A DNA stretch of 64,000 nucleotides from Cavenderia fasciculata (lineage: Eukaryota; Evosea; Eumycetozoa; Acytosteliales; Cavenderiaceae), in contig NW_004457735.1 in the NCBI RefSeq assembly GCF_000203815.1, forward strand, positions 1,302,001 through 1,366,000, written 5' to 3'. Below the pieces are notes generated by a model. The model had not been told where the DNA came from. It worked only from the letters and a program-made list of their open reading frames with translations, and searched no databases. Within the stretch, counting starts at the first letter, position 1, and every line of letters begins with the position of its first letter. Shown one piece after another: positions 20,130-44,012 of this stretch. A program made the position numbers and the translations under genes.

Positions 20130-21116
20130 TTAAATATCGGTAAAGGTAACGGTAGCATTGCCGTTTGGTAAAAGGTTCTTCTTCATTTGATACATTCTTT
20201 CATCGGCACATTTAATCAACTTGTCGGTTTGAGTTGATTGTGATTTGTTGAACACAACACCTCCAAAGGAAAGAGTTACTATGATTGAGGTGGAGTTGTT
20301 GAGTTGGACAGTGTCGCATTGGACACTTGAGAGGTAGCTGGAAATGAATTGGTCAGCTTGTGTGTTTGATTCTACATTGCGCTTGACAATGAGGAATTCA
20401 TCGCCAGAAAGGCGGACTGGGAGAACTGACTCGTCGGCGAATTGTTGGAAACGATCGGCAACTGATCTGAGGACAACGTCACCATTGTCGTGTCCATGGG
20501 TATCGTTGATTTGTTTGAATTTGTTGAGATCGATAAAGTAGATTGAGCATTGTTCAGATGAAGACTTGGCACAAAACTTTTGGATCTTGTTGTTGAGGTG
20601 GTATCTATTTTGGAGACCAGTGAGTGCATCGTGGGTCAAGGTATTCTTGAGCTTCTTGAGTTGTTGTTTCTCTTGGCTGTTGTCAATCATGATTCCTTGG
20701 AAGACATTGGTCGAAGCATCATACTTTCCAGTAAGACGGTAATAGGAAGAGCAGCTCTTGCTCTTGATTTGAACGTCACTTGGTGAAAATTGATTCATTG
20801 ATGAGATGATATTGTTTTGGAGGGTGATTGAGTCGATGAGATATGATTGACAGAATTGTTCAAGTGATACTGAACTATTATTGGTTTTAACAATACGATT
20901 GTTAAAGTTGATTTCTAAAATACTGATTGATTGATTGGATGAAAGTATTTCCATAAAGCGACTTGATGACTTCTTGTCACGCTTTTGGATGGTATATAAG
21001 AAAACAATGATACAAAAGGCAATGTAGAAATAGTTGGTTGGGAATAGTGTGGTTGGGAATCTATCCAAAGATTGTCTTTGGATGAGTTGATTAAAGTTGA
21101 TAATTTCAATTGCCAT
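20130..21116 (-). CDS. dgcA: diguanylate cyclase, DgcA-like (SGDEF)
   Basis: A single exon of 328 residues. One membrane helix (~24-42, FPTNYFYIAFCIIVFLYTIQ) is followed by a PAS-like region and a GGDEF domain beginning DALTGLQNRYHLNNKI. Substrate and metal residues are present: FIDLNKFKQINDTHGHDNGD, and the signature at residues 237-241, which reads SGDEF. The upstream inhibitory-site position, RxxD in many bacterial enzymes, reads DESV, so product feedback by that site should be absent. Dictyostelids are the eukaryotes known to make c-di-GMP; D. discoideum DgcA makes it as the stalk-inducing signal. The symbol is given by family. Several dgc paralogues are possible. The 5' flank on the minus strand is a ~930-bp gene-free region. 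Confidence 0.88.
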   Translation of the reverse strand: MAIEIINFNQLIQRQSLDRFPTTLFPTNYFYIAFCIIVFLYTIQKRDKKSSSRFMEILSSNQSISILEINFNNRIVKTNNSSVSLEQFCQSYLIDSITLQNNIISSMNQFSPSDVQIKSKSCSSYYRLTGKYDASTNVFQGIMIDNSQEKQQLKKLKNTLTHDALTGLQNRYHLNNKIQKFCAKSSSEQCSIYFIDLNKFKQINDTHGHDNGDVVLRSVADRFQQFADESVLPVRLSGDEFLIVKRNVESNTQADQFISSYLSSVQCDTVQLNNSTSIIVTLSFGGVVFNKSQSTQTDKLIKCADERMYQMKKNLLPNGNATVTFTDI

Positions 21117-22046
21117 TTTTTAATATTGTGTATGGTAGTTGTTGTGAATTTAATTATTAAATTGTTGATTGTTTGATTTGTGATTTAAATAATGAATCGA
21201 AAGTTGCTCTATTTATACTAAACGGTTGCACTGTAAAAGGAAAGATGAACAATTTAATATTTAACTCAATTATTGGTGCGAACTGATCATTTTACCTATT
21301 TTGAACATCTTCTAGTTTTGGGTAATGATAATACTCCAATGATTACCATTTTAAAGCAACTACTCGCTTTGGTAAATGATAATATTCCAGTGATTACCAT
21401 TTTTATACTTAGGTTTTATGTTTGATCAAGAAGAGAGCAACCGAACATTGTACTTTGTTTTTGATCATTATCTGTGCGAGAATGAAACAATATCCATATC
21501 TGTAGTGATTGATAACAATGATCGAATGAATTGTGTAGTTTGAAATGATCTCTTACATATGCCTGATGATGGTGATCCCTTTACTCAAAAGTTGTCACCA
21601 ACGACTCGACTTTGATGATCACCATTTGATAACAACCATGATGATCAAAATTTTAAACAATGAATGAACGATTAGTTGTGTTTTAAAACAATACCCACCA
21701 TTCTTAAAATGGGAATATTAATAGTGATCATTTTTTGTTTTAGCAAAATGGTTTGTGTGGTTCAAAATTAAAAGGTGTTTTAGGATAGAGTTGCTTATTT
21801 TGGTACTGTCGAATCACAATAGATCTTTTAACCTATACTTGCTCTGACTTTCAACCATCTTGATGAATCAAATATTCTATTATACCAACCGCTTTTACAA
21901 GTTGTTATTATTCCTGCCTTCCTTCATCCTACAATGAGATTATTTTAATTCATCAATATAATTATTTCCATTGCTGAATGACTTTAATATGTATTTAGTA
22001 ATTCTCTTAGCAATCATTTGACTTTAACAATTAATCTTTAATTTAT
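21117..22046. other. gene-free interval with hairpin-forming direct repeats
   Basis: This is upstream of the diguanylate cyclase gene. It contains two related copies of a unit starting GGTAA.TGATAATA and ending GATTACCATTT (21321-21350 and 21371-21401); each copy is flanked by its own GGTAA/TTACC inverted repeat. No coding signal seen. Confidence 0.55.
21321..21401. repeat. two imperfect direct repeats, each with internal inverted repeat
   Basis: Copy 1 spans 21321-21350 and copy 2 spans 21371-21401. They share about 25 of 30 positions and each starts GGTAA and ends TTACC, so each could fold or bind a dimeric regulator. They lie about 200-285 bp upstream of the cyclase start, inside its likely promoter. 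Confidence 0.5.
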
Positions 22047-33087: not shown

Positions 33088-34828
33088 TTATTCTAAATCA
33101 ACTTTAATTGATTTATCAAGGATTGAAAATTGTTCAAAGAATTTCTGAATCAATTGGAAACCATAGGTGATATCGACAACACCGCAAGTCTCTCTGATAC
33201 TGTGCATACTAAGTTGTGGATTGCCAATGTCGACGGTACGGATACCGTAGGAACCCGAGATGATGGGACCGATGGTGGAACCGCATGGCGAGTCGTTCTT
33301 GACGAGGAACTCTTGGACGGGGATACCGTTGCGCTTGGCCAACTCGAGGATGGTGAATGAGGTGGGACCAGTGGTAGCGTAACGGAGATTGGCATTGTAC
33401 TTGATGACGGGACCCTTGTTGAGTTGTGGGCGATGGAGTGGTTCGTGGTGACCAGAGTAGTTGGGGTGGATGGCGTGGGCCATGTCGGCCGAGACGAGGA
33501 ACGAACGACGCAACGACAAGTCGACGATCGTGTTGATGTCTTTGCCAGCTGGTACAAAGCAGTGGTTGACACGGGTGATAGTATCGGTGATGAGTGGGGC
33601 ACAGGCACCTTGAGGCGAGCTCGATCCAACCTCTTCATTGTCAAAGAGGACGACTGACAAGACCGACTCTTCTTGCTTGATGTGTTCGTCAGAGACACGC
33701 AACAAACCTTCGATCGAGCAATACGACATGCACAAGTTATCCAAACGTGGCGAAAAGATGTATTCTTGGAGTGCACCACCGATGGCGGCTGGTTGAGTAT
33801 CACAAATCGACAGGTCAAAGTTTTGAATATCATTGACTGAGCAGTGCAACTCTTTAGCGAGAATATCGAGGAGGATGGGATGATGCTTCTTGTTCTCGTA
33901 GTTTTCACCGTCGCCGTTGGTCAACTTGGCGTTGATCTGACTGGCAAGGATGGGTACAATATGGTTTTGTGCGTTGTATTTGAAGCCGTCCGAGTTGACA
34001 CTACGGTCCAAATGGATGGCCAACGATGGAATACGCAAGATTGGACGCTTGACATGCACCAACTTTGACTCAAAGCTGCCATCGGCACCCTTGATAATGA
34101 CACGACCGGCCACAGTCAAATCTCTATCAAACCAAGTGTACCAAAGACCACCACCATACGTCTCTACACCAACTTGTAAATAACCAGCACTCTCAACATT
34201 TGATACTGGACGTACCTTTAAATTTGGACTATCAGTATGAGCTGCTGCAATATTAAATCCATTTCCTCCATTCTACAAATATAACAAACAAATAAATAAA
34301 TAAATAAATAAATAAATATTGATTATGTATAATATTATATTATATACATACAAACTTTCCACCAACAATAAATGCAGATACACATGATTGATTTCTGGTA
34401 AAGAAGTATTTTCCGTTTGGTTTAATATCCCATTCTTGCTTTTCAGACAATTGAATGAAACCCTTTTGCTTGAGCATCTCTGCTACTTGAGAAGTGGCAT
34501 GATAAGGAGATGGAGCACTATCGATAAAATTGACAAATTGTCTTGCTTGTGGAATGAATGGATCCATCTTTTCTTGTAGTGCTTTGATAGTTGTTGTTGT
34601 TGTAGTTTTAGTACTGCTGTTTGATTTAAATCGAAGATTATTATTATTTAATAATCTATCTTGAAGTAATAATGAACTTGTTGTTTTGTTATTACTTGTG
34701 GTGTTGTAGTTGTTGTTGTTGATAACAAATGAGGAAGATATGAATCGGTATGAAGAGATACTGTTGCTTGTACTACTACTACTGCTAATTAATCTATAAA
34801 CACTATGACGAGAGTGCTTTAACATCAA
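33088..34828 (-). CDS. dnpep: aspartyl aminopeptidase (M18) with N-terminal extension
   Basis: Minus-strand exons 34828-34352 and 34272-33088 give 553 residues. The M18 fold starts at Met88 (MDPFIPQARQFVNFIDSAPS). Metal and active-site motifs are present: AAAHTDSPNLKV, FDNEEVGSSSPQGA, ADMAHAIHPNYSGHHEP and CGSTIGPI. The enzyme removes N-terminal Asp/Glu as a tetrahedral metallo-oligomer, normally in the cytosol. The first 87 residues are extra: Arg/Ser/Asn/Thr-rich with almost no acidic residues (MMLKHSRHSVYRLI), like a mitochondrial presequence. Starting at Met88 would give the usual cytosolic length, so two products are possible. Confidence 0.93.
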
Positions 34829-35482: not shown

Positions 35483-38400
35483 ATGAACATACAAAACTCT
35501 GCATTTTGTAGAAGTTGCAAAAAAGCTTTGTTTAGTCACCAAGAATTATTCTTTTATAGAGGTATTGTAATTGTATAATATAAATATAGATATATATATA
35601 TATATATAATATGTAGATACATTACTCATTTATTTATTTATTTATTAATTTATTAATTTTAGATATAAATGGTGGACTTCATTTAGTGATTGCAAATGAA
35701 GATAAAAGAGACAAAGTTTGGTACACTGGAGATAATCCATCAGACAAGAATAGAAACAAGACACCGTACAAGGTACATTGCTTGGGTTGTAAAAAGGCTA
35801 TTGGTAATCATGTCAATCAGTTTTTGGACCATTTGCCATACGTACTGACACTGGATAGTGAAGAGGTAGCCTTGACACACGAACATCTTGCCATCAAGTT
35901 TTCTAAACAAAAGAAATGGAAAGAGGTTCAAGGACGTGTAGGAAACTTAATTCCAGAGTACTCATCAGCCACTCTACCTGGAGCACCAAAGATAAAGTCA
36001 TCAAACAAACCATACAAACCAACTGAATTGCCAAGGGATGAAGAACACTTTGAGGAAATCTGTCAAACTGTACAACTGGTCTTTAAACCATATGACTATC
36101 AATGGGAGTCAACAAGGCAATCAGTACCAAAAAATACTATTGTCGTCTTACCAACAGGTATATATATATATCAAACCTAATCAATTCAAATCAACTAATC
36201 TTTTTTTCTCAAAGGTAAAGGAAAGACTAAAATAGCAGTAATGGTAATGAAAATTCTTTATCAACTAAATAACTTGAAACAAGAAGAAAAGGAAACCTAT
36301 CAAAAAAGAATGATTCTATTTTTGACCAACAAAATTCCATTGGCTGAACAACAGGCCAAAGCCATCAAACAAGATTGTCCAGATTTAAAGATACATCTGA
36401 GAACTGGAGAAGGTGAGAGTGGTAACATTATGGAGGATCGTCAATATGATGTTATCGTATGTACAGCAGACATTATTAGAAATTGGATTGGATACAATAT
36501 GGCATCGATGAAAGATTTCTATCTTGTCATTTATGATGAGTGCCATCATGCAACTGGTGAACATGTATTTGTTAAATTGGCAGAAGAAATTAAAAAGCTT
36601 GATAGAGAATTTCAACCAAGGTTTAGTTAAAAAAAAAAAAAAAAAGATATCTTTTTGTATTTTTTAATATTAATTTATATTTATTATTTAGAATATTGGG
36701 ATTGACAGCATCACCAAGTACAGGTGGTAAAGATACAAGTCAAATAATGAAAAATATTGATGCTTTGGAAAGAAATATTGGATCGACTATTTTTAGACCA
36801 AAGTCTTTACCAATGGAGAATCCATTAGAGATGGAAAGTATAGTGTATCAATTTACAAGACAGGAAATTGGTACTCGTAAAGAAATTGATAGTGTTTTGG
36901 CAGAAGCTACCAAACGGTTGTGTGACGAGTTAAAATTTACCGATCCAAACCTACGATACAATGATCAAAACTATACATCATTCTATCAGGGGTTAAAGAA
37001 ATTAGATGACTATCACAGAGACCAAAACCCACCTCGCATGACAAGTGTTCCAAGTGGTTTGCTCTACAAATTATTCAATTTAATTGGTATTTTACAAGTA
37101 CAAGGTATCCAAGCTGTACTTACTAGTATTGTAGAGGATTTGCAAATGGATGAACTAGATAGTTATTACACTAGTGCCTACATGTATTATATGAAGAAAA
37201 TACAAAAAGGAGTCTTGGATCAATTTGTTGGAACAAATCCACCACTTTACTCATCAAAGTACAAAGCTCTAAGAGACTACATCAATAACTTTATTGAAAA
37301 ATCCGTTGCAAATGATACCATTTCAGATGTTCGTGGAATTGTTTTTGTTAAAACTCGTCAAGGTTGTTCCGATTTAATTAAATTGTAATGTATATTATAA
37401 TAATAATAGATTTAATTATATGTTTATTTTCTATTTTATTTAATTTTTAGACTTAAAAAGGAACCTGTAAATTTACATATTAAATCAAAATTATTTGTTG
37501 GACATACTGGTGAAGATGGTATGTCTACTGAAAAACAAAATAGAATCATGGAGAGTTTTAGAAAAGGTGATTGTAAATTCCTTGTTGCTACAAGTGTACT
37601 TGAAGAAGGTATTGATGTTCAACAATGTAATATGGTCATTAGTTTTGATCCAGATTTAAATTTAAGAAATATGATTCAAAGAAGGTAAATTAAAAAGAAA
37701 TCAAAAAAGTTGATCCCCTAACTTTTGGTAGATACTAATGTTTATTATTATTATTATTATTCATTTTTTATTTTAGAGGAAGGGCAAGAAGTAAAGATGG
37801 TAAATTTGCATACTTGATTAAAGAAGGTGAAACAGATGAAATTAAATCATTGGAGAAAAACGAAATTCTTATGGCCAAGATTATTTTGGAGTATATGGAT
37901 GTAAGAAAATCGGAATATGAAAACTCGATCAAACAATACAAGTTTATCGATGGATCTTATTCTCTAGATAGAGCTCACCACTCTTTGGTTTTATCTTTCT
38001 ATCATTACGATGAAGACCTTTTACAGGAACGATTAAAGAGTTTGGAACCAAAATCAATTGAAGAAGTGTATTCGAAAAAAGAAAAGAGAAGATACTTGAA
38101 TCAATACTTGTTGGTTGGTATGGAAACCAACACCCAATCATTTGAAGATCTATTCAAATCGGTTGCATTGGCGCCATCAGAGCAAGACCCATCTTCAGAT
38201 GTTGCATCAAACAACCCTTGCTATTTCTGGGGTGCGGCAGTAAACATTCATGAAAAGCACTCGATCAGTGGATCCGACAAGACAGATAGTTACTTTAGTC
38301 GTGCCAATATCAAGGTTGGCAACTTTTCAACGCCAACATGTTTTGTTCCCTCCAAAGAGTACCCATACTCTAGTTTCAAAGTTGATCCTACCCAAAGAAA

Positions 38401-41400
38401 GGTCACTATCGGAACAAAGGATCCAATGCTCACAATTGGGACTATCTATCATGAAATCTACTTTGAAGATTTGGATGACTTTTTGTTGTACGATGTTATT
38501 AAAAAAGTATTTTATATCATCCTCAAAAGACCACCTAAATTCATAGCCAAGACTATAGATGATGCTGACCCGATGAATCTCTTCGAACAATTCTACGTTG
38601 ATTGGAATGGACCTGCAAGAGTTTCCTACAGATACATGTTGCCAACAGACTATGTGGAAATTGGCGCACTTAAAGATTGTTATGCATATCAAATCGAATT
38701 CATAGAAGAGTTGGACATTGAAGACATGTATTATGGTTGGGAAGAGGAACAACCAACTGATACCATTCCATTTGAAAAATTGATTTCTAGAAAGTTAAAA
38801 TCTACCTTTTTATATTATTGTTCAATTTTGGAAGATGATACACATCAAGATGATGATGGATCACATCATTTATCCGATTTACGAAAACCTCTATCTCAAG
38901 ATCATTATTATTTATTAAATGTTTTAAAATCGTAAGAGGAAAAAAAAAAGACAATCATCAATATAATATACTATATACTAATTACCTCTCTTTCTCTCTT
39001 TTAGGAATAAGGAATTTGGTAAAACATTGATAGATTCAAAGTTTTATGAAAATATGGATTTGGTTAAAGGAAAAGAGAATAGATATGAATATTTGATGAG
39101 AGCAATTGATTCAGCTCCATTTGACAATAGATTCTATCAAATTGATAGAATTGGAAAGGTTAATTTGAATTCGCCATTGGATAGTCTACAAGCAACTCGC
39201 GAAAACTATGCATTGATCAAAAATGTATATATCACACCTACTCGAACTCTATTCCAAAAACCATCAATGTACCAACTCAATCGTGCTCTTAGAAGATATG
39301 GTGCCGATAATTTCCTGCTCGTTCATTTTGTCGAAGAGAATCTTGATGAAAAGGTCGAATATTCCAAGTTTCAAACTAAAAGCATCGAAAACATTCTATT
39401 AGAAGGTATAATGATTGAAGGAATTGGAAGATTCCATTATATTGGTAATAGTGCCAGTCAAGCAAGAAGCTCTAGTTGTTGGTTTACAAATAATAGAAAT
39501 GATATTGACACGATTAGAAATCAATTGGTTGATCTTTCAATCAACACTGGTATTGCCAACCCTAGAAAATACCTACGTTCGCTAGGTCTGGTATTCTCTG
39601 GTACAACACCTTCTATCATTATACCCAACAACCAATACAACGAAAACCTAGATGATGTAAGGAATGATGAAGCTATATTTACAGAAGGTATTGGTTTTAT
39701 TGGAAAGAATTTGGCCAACAAAATCAATGCTGAAAATAGTTTCCCGCTTGGAACATCTTCTTATCAAATCCGTATTGGTGGAAACAAGGGTGTCGTATCA
39801 GTACATCACTCTATCGAAAACGGAATCTATCTTCGAAATAGTATGAAAAAGTTCAATACCAACAACAGCGAGATGAACAGAACACTCGAAATCATCTCTA
39901 TTGCATCTAAAAAGAATTGTACACTCAATCGACAAATCATCAATCTCTTTGGTGGTTTGGGTGTACCCGACAGATTATTCTTAATGTTGGTAATGGAATG
40001 TTTAGAGAAATTAGCTCTCATCCTCCAAGATTCATCGATGGCTAGATCAGAATTAAAGAATATAGATTTCTTTAATCAATCTGAACCTACTGAGAAGGAG
40101 TTATTATACGATCCCCTCATTCGTCGTATATTACATACTCTTTACAAAAAACAATTAACCAAATATTTGGATTTTTGTTTTATTCCAATCAAAAATGCTA
40201 GAACTCTTGTATGTGTAAACTCGAAAATTAATATTCATAATTTAATTTATTAATTTAATTTTTATTTATTATTTATTTTTAGCTTGGAGTAATAGATGAA
40301 ACTGGAACATTGGAGGAAAACCAAGTATTTGTTAGAATCACAGCAGATAATAATGAAATTATAGTGATTCAAAGTAATGTTGCAGTTGTAAAGAATCCTT
40401 GTCTTCATCCAGGTGATGTACAACTTGCAATGGGTGTTGATAATCAACTACTACATCATATGCTAGATGTAGTTGTTTTCTCTCAAAAAGGAACCATTCC
40501 ACTCTTTTCCAAATGTTCTGGTTCCGATCTCGATGGTGATCGTTATTTTGTCTGTTTTGACACGGATATGGTCAATACTATCGTACAACACAAAGATTTT
40601 TGCAATTTGCCATCAAAATCTGATTCTACTGTCAAGGAAATCAACAAAGATACAGTGATTCAACAATTTATCGAGAATACTCAAAAGGGAAGATTAGGAC
40701 AAATCGCACTCAGCCATCTTGCCATCTCTGACTACAAGTCACCAACCGACGATCTAGCCATTGAACTTGCAATAGAGCATTTCAAAGAAGTTGATTTTGT
40801 AAAGACCAATATTCATGGTACCGTCCCCGAACAAGCTCTAGAGCTTACAAATTATGGCAGAAGGTATCCAATGTTTATGAAAGCATCGGTTGGTGCCAAC
40901 AAAGAATTTTCAGAGTCGACCAAAGTTCTTGGTAAGATCTACAATCAATGTAGTTCTCTTGTTAGTGTAGCTCAATATCTTCCAGACTCTAGAGTCGACG
41001 AATCAATCTTGGTCAGCGGATATGAAGACTATGTAGAGGATGCAAGACACCAATTTAAAAACTACAAAAAGGAAATTAGATACCTAAGATCAAAGTATAA
41101 TATTGAAAAGGAAGAGGATATTATCAGTAGTTATATGGACAATTCGATGAGTGGATCATCATACTCAAAGAATATAGTAGAGGATGCATACAATCAATTC
41201 TCAGTCCTAGCAGTACATTATAGAGATCTATTCCTCTTACCATTTAAATCAAAGGAAAGTGGTGGTGGTGTTTCAGATGAAGATATCGTCATCAAATATA
41301 GACAAGAAATTGATAAAAAGGTTTCAGCATGGTATTTTGTTTCTTATGGTGATGATAAACTTGAAAAGGTAAATATAATATTAAATAATTATTTAAAATA

Positions 41401-44012
41401 TTGTTACTAATCTCTTTTATTTTTAGGTATTAAGTTTTTATTGGATTGTAAAAAGATATATTAATTTAAATAGTGAAAGATATCAAGTAGATAGAAATCT
41501 ATTATCAAAAGATATTATTTCAAATGTTTTAAAGAATCAATGTGAACTGTTTTCATCGTTTGCAACAAGATGTCAAATATTGAAAAGTGTGATTAGTGGA
41601 TTGAAAAAGTATTGTCCAGAATACTTTTCCGAAGCCAATCTATTGCTTTATGGAAGTTCATCATTTTTCCTTCATTCTCCAACTCAATCTGATATCGATA
41701 TCTATTTGTACACCAATCATGGCAGTGCTCTAACAAATGATGATATATTTAAAAAGGTTGAACTCGTCCTTAGATCAAATGATATCGATGTTGAACACAT
41801 TGAATACATTGAAAAGACGGCAGTTCCTATTGTCACTTTTACAAGCAATGGTATATCTTGTGACATTTCACTCGATTCTAATGGATTTGATAAAACAAAT
41901 TATGTTTGTTCTTATATTGACAAGTATCCATTCCTCTATCCATTCCTTTATACTGTGGTGTCGTGGGGTAGAGAAACTGGACTGTTGATACATCAAGTAA
42001 CCGACATCAAAACAAGAAACCTAAAGACTTGGGCATTGGTTTGGATGGTCATAGAGTATTGCCTCAAAAAAAATATCATTCAAAAGATGGAACCTGTTTT
42101 CTACACGAATGACTCCCCCTTTTCAAAATTAGAATGGTGGACCAATATCTTTAGAATAATTAGTAACGACGTAGACAATAGTATTGAACAAGTCATTGGA
42201 AAGTATGTATTGGACTTTTTCAAATTCTACACCAAAGAGCTCAGTTTTGGTTATTTCAACGCTACTCAATACAAGTTGGTATGTCCTTTGGATCGTGTTG
42301 ATTTACCATCTCTGTTACTCGAGCCTGTTTATCCCAACTATCACTTTTTACAAGAAACCTTCCAACTTGCATTCCACTCGCTTTCGTCCAAGGGTGGAAG
42401 TATCACAGAGTTTTTCAAACACTGTCACAACAAAAACTCTAAAGTGATTTATCTCGATCGTCTGTTGGTACACCGACTCAGGGGAGGTGATGACATGTCA
42501 TTCTTTGAAAACAATTTAAAGGTTAAAACTGGTGCAACCAACGTTGACATTCGTCACATCAAAGGCAATAGATACCAGATGAAGATATCTGGTGATCCAG
42601 AATCCATTCAAATGGTCATTGAAGAGGTTGCAAATCTCTCCAACAATATATCAACCACTCCATTCTCATCGACCAAAAAGATTGTTACTGGAGGTGGTAC
42701 TACTCTTTTAATGGAAGGTTCAGAGACCAATGGCAACACGATTATATTTGTCAATAGTACTAGACGTGTGCATGTTCAACATTTGGGAAAACGACCTTCT
42801 TTCCCAATGCTCAAAGTTCCAAATCAGAATATTGGTATTTTGGATGACGCTCACATGGAATACACCAACACTATCTACCGACAACTCGAAAGATTCTATT
42901 ATTTTGGAGAGGCAGCTGTGCATTGGGGTGATACTCAAGCTCACATTCGATTTGGTCAAATCTACTTTATCAATGTCTCTCATAGTGGTTGTGAAAAGAC
43001 TCTTGCTGAAACAAGATTGGGTATGTCAAAGGGTAGTAAAGAAACGGTCAAATTTGAATTAAGTGGTAATGTAGTCATCAAACAAGACCACATTAAAAAG
43101 GTTAAAGAATCTAAAAAGAAGGATCTTTCAGACTCTGATGGTCAACCAAGTGGACCGATTGTAGACACTGCATCAGTTGCCTTTGTCGATAGAGGAAATG
43201 AAGACGAGGAAAAGCAATCAAACAAAACCTCTGAGCCAAAGTCATCATTCTTTACATTTGTCTTGGATTCTGTCAGATCGATGGAAGATCTTTTACTCGG
43301 TGAGGGATGGACACTCCGTGACAAACCACATAAATCCCCTCTTGTTATCCACATGACACTCAATACTTTGGACCGTCTCAAGAAAAAGACAGAGTACAAG
43401 ATTAGAGTATCCAAAGATTTTAAAAAGATTGTCATGCAAAACCCAACCCTTACATGGTTTGGATCGGATCTAAAGTCTAGAAACGATGAACACTTTGACC
43501 TTCGTTATTCTATACAATCGAGAAAAGCATACCCCAAGATATTTGTTGGTGACGAGGAAAGTTGCAAAGCAGAATGGATTAAAAAACAACCATACATGGA
43601 TGCACATCTATTGGGCAAACTGTTAATCACACCAAACCGTGTCAACACTCTTACCAAATACGAAGTCCATCCAGAGATTAAAGAGAATATTGTATTGATC
43701 CGAGAACACACAAATAATAGAACCTATGTTCCACCGGCCGGACATCCACTTGCCTACTATAACATCTCTGCCACGCTGACAGAAATTCAAGAATTTGATA
43801 AGTCTGGCAAGATCCTAACCAAAAAGACTGAATTGGAATTCTCAATGAACCTTCCAAGACAAGTTGACACTGCCCTCTTTGTAACTCCCTATTGGCAACA
43901 AGGTATCGATTTCTTAAATCTTTTAAACAAAAAAAAGGATGACATTGATTCTGATTGTCATGATAACAAACGTCAACATTATGAAGTTGGTAATGATCAT
44001 TGTTTTAAATAA
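35483..44012 (+). CDS. helicase-RNA-dependent RNA polymerase-nucleotidyltransferase fusion (RNAi)
   Basis: Exons 35483-35561, 35663-36157, 36215-36620, 36692-37384, 37451-37684, 37777-38931, 39005-40208, 40283-41368 and 41427-44012 join in frame to 2,645 residues. (1) Residues 9-69: C9/C12 and C66/C69 with HCLGCKKAIGNHV, resembling the RIG-I C-terminal zinc domain. (2) Helicase: Walker A TGKGKT (192-196), DECHH (299-303), LTASP, EEGIDVQQCN, QRRGRAR (~634-640), of Dicer/RLR type. (3) RdRP: QIRIGGNKGVVSV, CLHPGDV and catalytic DLDGD with Asp1504, 1506 and 1508. (4) Nucleotidyltransferase: GSS (1860), D1873/D1875 in SDIDIYL, third Asp1930. (5) About 525 C-terminal residues with a KH-like start. 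The likely role is secondary dsRNA/siRNA synthesis, by analogy with D. discoideum Rrp proteins. Confidence 0.9.

Follow-up and report, generated by a model that had tools for sequence, protein, structure and literature searches.

The gene that occupies positions 35483..44012 (+) of a 64,000-nucleotide stretch of the genome of the dictyostelid Cavenderia fasciculata (contig NW_004457735.1, positions 1,302,001 to 1,366,000; the whole stretch is referred to here as "the window") raises the question of whether the enzymes that amplify RNA silencing can be carried by a single polypeptide. The silencing RNA-dependent RNA polymerase (RdRP) of yeast, ciliates and worms has a nucleotidyltransferase as its partner and, in some of these groups, a helicase too; in yeast and Tetrahymena, the RdRP and the nucleotidyltransferase are separate proteins, and in all three groups the target RNA and the action of the silencing nucleotidyltransferases are often unclear. 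An earlier note on the window had proposed that a helicase, an RdRP and a nucleotidyltransferase are encoded here together. By comparing the predicted protein with domain profiles, with known structures and with the whole genome (31.0 Mb, 21 contigs), we have confirmed that one predicted chain bears a helicase, an RdRP and a nucleotidyltransferase of the Cid1/terminal uridylyltransferase (TUTase) type, in that order. We consider it rather probable that this is one protein with most of the amplification machine of RNA silencing, i.e. an Rrp-type helicase-RdRP that has been extended by a C-terminal nucleotidyltransferase and by an N-terminal cysteine-rich domain similar to the RNA-end sensor of RIG-I, and in which the nucleotidyltransferase tails the template.

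Domain order and catalytic motifs of the predicted protein

The stop-free splice model consists of nine exons (35483-35561, 35663-36157, 36215-36620, 36692-37384, 37451-37684, 37777-38931, 39005-40208, 40283-41368 and 41427-44012), which join into 7938 nt that encode 2645 amino acids and a stop codon, with no internal stop, in agreement with the unbroken frame that had been claimed; the start codon and the boundary of exon 1 have been placed by conservation only. All eight introns are bounded by GT..AG and measure 57-101 nt, with a GC content of 8-25%, versus 28-38% in the exons. The domains are arranged in the order zinc-type domain, helicase, RdRP, nucleotidyltransferase and C-terminal extension, and the catalytic signatures listed in the earlier note are found in the same succession, with the motifs of all three predicted enzymes intact: TGKGKT, DECHH and QRRGRAR are located at residues 191, 299 and 634, DLDGD is located at residue 1504, while the GSS, the DID and the third aspartate (CDIS) of the nucleotidyltransferase are located at residues 1860, 1873 and 1930. 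The Pfam profiles agree with these positions, with four of them scoring over their own curated cut-off (RdRP, PF05183, E 4e-135; Helicase_C, E 1.6e-21; ResIII, E 1.1e-15; PF22600 palm, E 1.3e-8); because of these scores, a chance origin of the domains is excluded. A search of NCBIfam gave no match.

The helicase (residues about 171-639, exons 2-6, 36094..37786, +) matches ResIII/DEAD at residues 171-336 and Helicase_C at residues 536-639. Its closest relatives in the PDB, among the best 60 of 91 matches, are AncD1D2 (E 3.6e-49), which we take to be an ancestral Dicer helicase, MDA5, a plant Dicer homolog, RIG-I and LGP2, which places it with the RIG-I-like receptor (RLR)/Dicer-type helicases, in a comparison that does not separate the receptors from the Dicers. 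The RdRP (residues 1097-1644, 39231..40948, +) follows the helicase, as is the order in dictyostelid Rrp proteins and in the second fusion gene that is described below. The match to PF05183 covers profile positions 1-581 of 582, in keeping with a cellular RdRP of the QDE-1/RDR type, and the PDB matches of exon 8 are cellular RdRPs in seven cases out of seven, e.g. RNA-dependent RNA polymerase 2 and QDE-1.

The nucleotidyltransferase unit (41427..42491, +) contains a palm (41583-41915, +) with residues G1860-S-S, D1873, D1875 and D1930, i.e. the G[S/T]..DxD..D arrangement of the Cid1/TUTase-type terminal nucleotidyltransferases. PF22600, the MTPAP-like central palm domain, is matched by residues 1837-1947 in the whole protein (35.5 bits; cut-off 27) and, with E 4.1e-9, by exon 9 alone. 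When the domain is represented by a profile of its two copies in the genome, 13 distinct PDB sequences are found at E<=0.1, each of them named as either a terminal uridylyltransferase or a poly(A) RNA polymerase: the best matches are RNA uridylyltransferase 4 (E 7e-7) and Tailor (E 1.3e-6), with TUT4, TUT7, Poly(A) RNA polymerase protein 2 and GLD2 as further matches, and the alignment to Tailor extends to residue 265 of its chain. Similarity to nucleotidyltransferases after position 41427, on which the earlier note had staked its third enzyme, is therefore clear in both the Pfam and the PDB profile searches.

As far as sequence goes, the joint between the RdRP and the nucleotidyltransferase is settled by another fusion gene in this genome, which the earlier note had missed. 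Elsewhere in the genome, a second full RdRP domain occurs on contig C5 and a fragment occurs on contig C18. On C5, one intron-free open frame of 1893 codons holds both the RdRP (residues 84-640, E 1.3e-134) and PF22600 (residues 820-949, E 6.3e-12), and the helicase and the N-terminal domain are present upstream of it too; the helicase half shifts frame at L005:8616-8697 (-), where either a short intron lies or the sequence is in error. At aligned positions, the window gene and this paralogue are 49.6% identical across the RdRP and 41.2% identical across the nucleotidyltransferase; the identity is 35.6% for the linker that joins these domains, and 45.3% and 35.5% for the two tail segments (residues 2121-2240 and 2241-2645, respectively). 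Two introns have a common position and phase in both genes, namely a phase 1 intron at PTG|GKT and a phase 2 intron before FGKT; in the paralogue, they were identified by visual inspection of the DNA.

Since this deeply diverged second gene has the same domain order, the fusion predates the gene duplication. PF22600 gives 14 rows in the genome, two of which are the fusions; for the construction of a tree, ten PF22600 loci were fetched, three of which, including the paralogue locus, had no usable pattern. In the resulting rough tree of the two fusions and seven stand-alone nucleotidyltransferases (two of the seven being nearly identical), the fused nucleotidyltransferases pair with each other, apart from the stand-alone ones (support 0.965, long branches), which fits a single fusion event that preceded the gene duplication.

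The N-terminal domain and the comparison with known silencing systems

The helicase is preceded by a CxxC...CxxC domain (residues about 4-120, from exon 1 to the start of exon 2, 35483..35943, +), also overlooked in the earlier note, which is probably, but not proven to be, similar to the C-terminal domain (CTD) of RIG-I. Searched alone, the domain matches PF11648 (RIG-I C-terminal domain) with E 2.1e-4 (21.9 bits, profile positions 4-108 of 117), and its counterpart from the paralogue matches the same family with E 0.025 (15.2 bits, profile positions 4-107); the similarity is seen in both paralogues and in none of ten shuffles in which the cysteines were kept fixed. Several results weigh against this assignment: both matches lie under the Pfam cut-off of 25.6 bits, and PF11648 is not listed at E<=1 in the scan of the whole 2645-residue protein; the profile of the N-terminal pair does not find RIG-I in the PDB, its only match being myotilin (E 0.1); the short C2H2 family ZNF451 has a better E-value for the window copy (4.6e-6), although this match is confined to 15 residues and is missing from the paralogue; and RIG-I_C-RD is absent from the six-frame search of the genome, where the controls are silent too and the window domain is split by an intron.

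Fusions of a helicase with an RdRP are already known, as the earlier note had stated: the D. discoideum proteins RrpA, RrpB and RrpC resemble the window gene in that helicase and RdRP domains share one chain, but they are described with these domains alone, the string "nucleotidyl" occurring nowhere in the main text of the source (PMC3661229). The helicase-RdRPs of Phytophthora, Hydra and Nematostella also have the order DEAD/Helicase_C - RdRP, and in the main text that describes them a nucleotidyltransferase is not mentioned, "nucleotidyl" again occurring zero times (PMC4791657). The part that seems new is the added nucleotidyltransferase: a fusion of this enzyme with an RdRP is not reported among the open-literature matches listed, in line with the earlier note, which knew of no report of this enzyme on a helicase-RdRP chain; protein databases may already show the domain.

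The RNA-directed RNA polymerase complex (RDRC) of S. pombe (Rdp1-Cid12-Hrr1) combines, like the window gene, an RdRP, a Cid-type nucleotidyltransferase and an RNA helicase, but it is composed of separate proteins, and its Hrr1 helicase is the orthologue of ZNFX-1 (PMC9276528), not a RIG-I/Dicer-like enzyme. The single-polypeptide RDRC of the earlier note can thus be retained in part: an RdRP and a Cid-type nucleotidyltransferase occur together on one predicted chain with a helicase, at a resolution that stops short of the Cid subfamily, while the helicase, being RIG-I/Dicer-like in the PDB comparison, is not of the Hrr1/ZNFX1 type, so that "RDRC on one chain" describes an analogy of function. 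Helicases of the ZNFX-1 type belong to superfamily 1 (SF1), and we know of no RIG-I-CTD-like domain in the S. pombe RDRC. In RIG-I-like proteins, the CTD is located after the helicase, whereas the RIG-I-CTD-like domain of the window gene precedes it. In C. elegans, the RIG-I-like helicase DRH-3 acts with an RdRP; the DRH helicase, the RdRP and the terminal nucleotidyltransferase RDE-3 belong to one amplification pathway, but are separate proteins.

Proposed action of the fused protein and its alternatives

By analogy with these systems, we infer a mechanism for the fused protein. The N-terminal domain and the RIG-I/Dicer-like helicase would bind and hold the template or duplex RNA, and remodel or clear it, while the nucleotidyltransferase would extend the target RNA at its 3' end by untemplated nucleotides. 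Through this tail, a template would be made or marked for the RdRP on the same chain, much as Cid12 may do for Rdp1. The RdRP would copy the tailed RNA into double-stranded RNA (dsRNA), which would pass to Dicer-type enzymes without a recognised helicase, where the duplex would be cut; tailing, unwinding and copying would be coupled by the fusion on one RNA. The order of these steps has been drawn from the RDRC and from C. elegans, where RdRPs are recruited by the tails that the separate RDE-3 enzyme adds (PMC12265681).

It is conceivable, although we regard it as unlikely, that the fusion is real and that the nucleotidyltransferase acts instead on the products, by tailing small interfering RNAs or the ends of dsRNA, so as to direct their turnover or the selection of a strand, in the way that Cid14 and Cid16 tail Argonaute-bound small RNAs in fission yeast (PMC5458512). 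Sequence alone cannot separate template from product; the physical link with the polymerase and the tail-then-copy precedent of the worm favour the tailing of the template, by argument and not by data.

More doubtful is the explanation that the nucleotidyltransferase serves, without catalysis, as a scaffold or an RNA-binding module, which has some results on its side. Scans of the whole protein (E<=1) and of exon 9 (E<=5) do not list the poly(A) polymerase (PAP)-associated domain PF03828, so that, from the profile check that had been suggested for the C-terminal region, the PF22600 palm has emerged above its cut-off and the PAP-associated domain has not; and the PF22600 scores are modest (32-49 bits). 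Two further points weigh against the favoured reading as a whole: exon 9 alone gives weak PDB matches (Tailor, E 0.015), alongside chance matches such as myoglobin (0.95), and silencing-related tailing could fall to other PF22600 genes of the genome. Against a non-catalytic module stands the fact that the G-S/T, the DxD and the third aspartate (triad 1873/1875/1930 in the window gene) are intact in both fusion genes, despite an identity of about 41%, and we continue to favour an active enzyme that tails the template.

The doubtful joint of the gene model is intron 8 (41369..41426, +; 58 nt, GTAAAT..TTTTTAG, 10% GC), which separates the exon of the RdRP linker from that of the nucleotidyltransferase. 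That two neighbours have been joined on paper, i.e. a helicase-RdRP that ends at about 41370-41410 and a separate nucleotidyltransferase gene that begins at about 41427, could be argued from the separate proteins of yeast and Tetrahymena and from the need to assume this intron, as the frame otherwise reads through to a stop at 41410, but it is highly improbable: the exons are just 58 nt apart, the first ATG of exon 9 is residue 1991, beyond the whole catalytic triad (catalytic residues 1860-1930), so that exon 9 cannot start a nucleotidyltransferase of its own at an ATG, and the same place is uninterrupted in the paralogue, which holds both domains in one open frame. The late ATG and the paralogue also make a gene end near 41370, the outcome that the earlier note had named as damaging to its proposal, very unlikely.

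Silencing setting, C-terminal extension and neighbouring genes

The Dicer-type enzymes of the proposed pathway are represented in the genome by RNase III matches at two loci, on contigs C8 and C21, with two matches per locus. The main open reading frames (ORFs) of these loci encode an N-terminal dsRNA-binding domain (dsRBD) and two RNase III domains; no helicase match occurs in the main ORFs, and a genome-wide helicase search, with 18 rows, has no row at either locus. In this respect, the two loci resemble D. discoideum DrnA/B (PMC10328071), and the D. discoideum Dicers are also described without a canonical helicase base (PMC10328071, PMC4791657). Helicase-RdRPs accompany helicase-less Dicers in Dictyostelium, Hydra and Nematostella, while the oomycetes have kept the helicase in one Dicer (PMC4791657). 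Argonaute occurs at three places in the genome.

We are inclined, with little more than an even expectation, towards a broader reading, according to which dictyostelid RdRPs would be self-contained RNA sensor-amplifiers, with a RIG-I-type end-sensing domain, a RIG-I/Dicer-type helicase, an RdRP and a terminal nucleotidyltransferase on one chain; this arrangement would be ancestral to both RdRP lineages, hence also to D. discoideum RrpA/B/C, and the sensing helicase, absent from the Dicers, would be located on the polymerase. Eleven published D. discoideum oligonucleotides, translated and mapped on both genes, are too short for this comparison, with shuffle p values of 0.037 and 0.050 for two of them and of 0.157-0.913 for the other nine; restriction-site prefixes had been removed, one of the 11 is labelled lox/rox, and one lox/rox oligonucleotide was left out together with those not from rrp genes. 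If D. discoideum shares the domain, the existing rrp deletions, built on the annotated helicase and RdRP (PMC3661229), would have ignored a third enzyme. A single chain fixes the stoichiometry of its enzymes, and a point mutation in one gene of editable amoebae, for which a dictyostelid Cas9 protocol exists (PMC13046832), can probe the role of the nucleotidyltransferase.

The nucleotidyltransferase is followed by a C-terminal extension of about 500 residues, which had likewise gone unnoticed. Its main part (42648..44009, +, residues 2241-2645) is conserved in the paralogue and belongs to no Pfam family, a Pfam scan of two pieces having given no match. In the C. fasciculata genome, all three rows of the search for the extension correspond to the two fusion genes, while scans with the C-terminal alignment gave 87 pattern matches in viral_contigs and 52 in genome_contigs, none of which was confirmed as a relative. 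Between the nucleotidyltransferase and this region, a possible KH-like stretch (residues about 2144-2191, 42504..42647, +) has been rejected, with KH_1 being weakly matched in the paralogue only (E 0.058) and not in the window copy. The paralogue ends in an RS/RD-rich tail (L005, about 1170-1700, - strand) that the window gene does not have.

The fragment on C18 is a 98.0% identical copy of window positions 38714-39390 (L006:4956-5640, 686-column alignment), which spans the end of exon 6, intron 6 (kept) and the start of exon 7. By its sequence, it is a recent DNA-level duplication of a fragment of the RdRP gene; it is a matter of speculation that, if transcribed, it could feed the silencing of the RdRP gene itself. 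Among the PF22600 genes, a cluster is located at C7:305215-330908, one member of which has a nearly identical copy at C18:461265. A separate RIG-I/Dicer-type helicase gene, presumably HelF-like, lies at C21:936500-943000 (L036) and matches a dsRBD weakly (E 0.0037), and a further helicase gene, which we take to be FANCM-like, lies on C4; no RdRP is found beside either of them within the stretch examined.

In the window itself, an M18 aminopeptidase gene runs on the other strand (33091-34272, -), shortly before the start of the fusion gene, and a GGDEF diguanylate cyclase domain (20133-21119, -, E 7.6e-35), found here in a eukaryotic genome, belongs to a gene that is presumably the dictyostelid DgcA.

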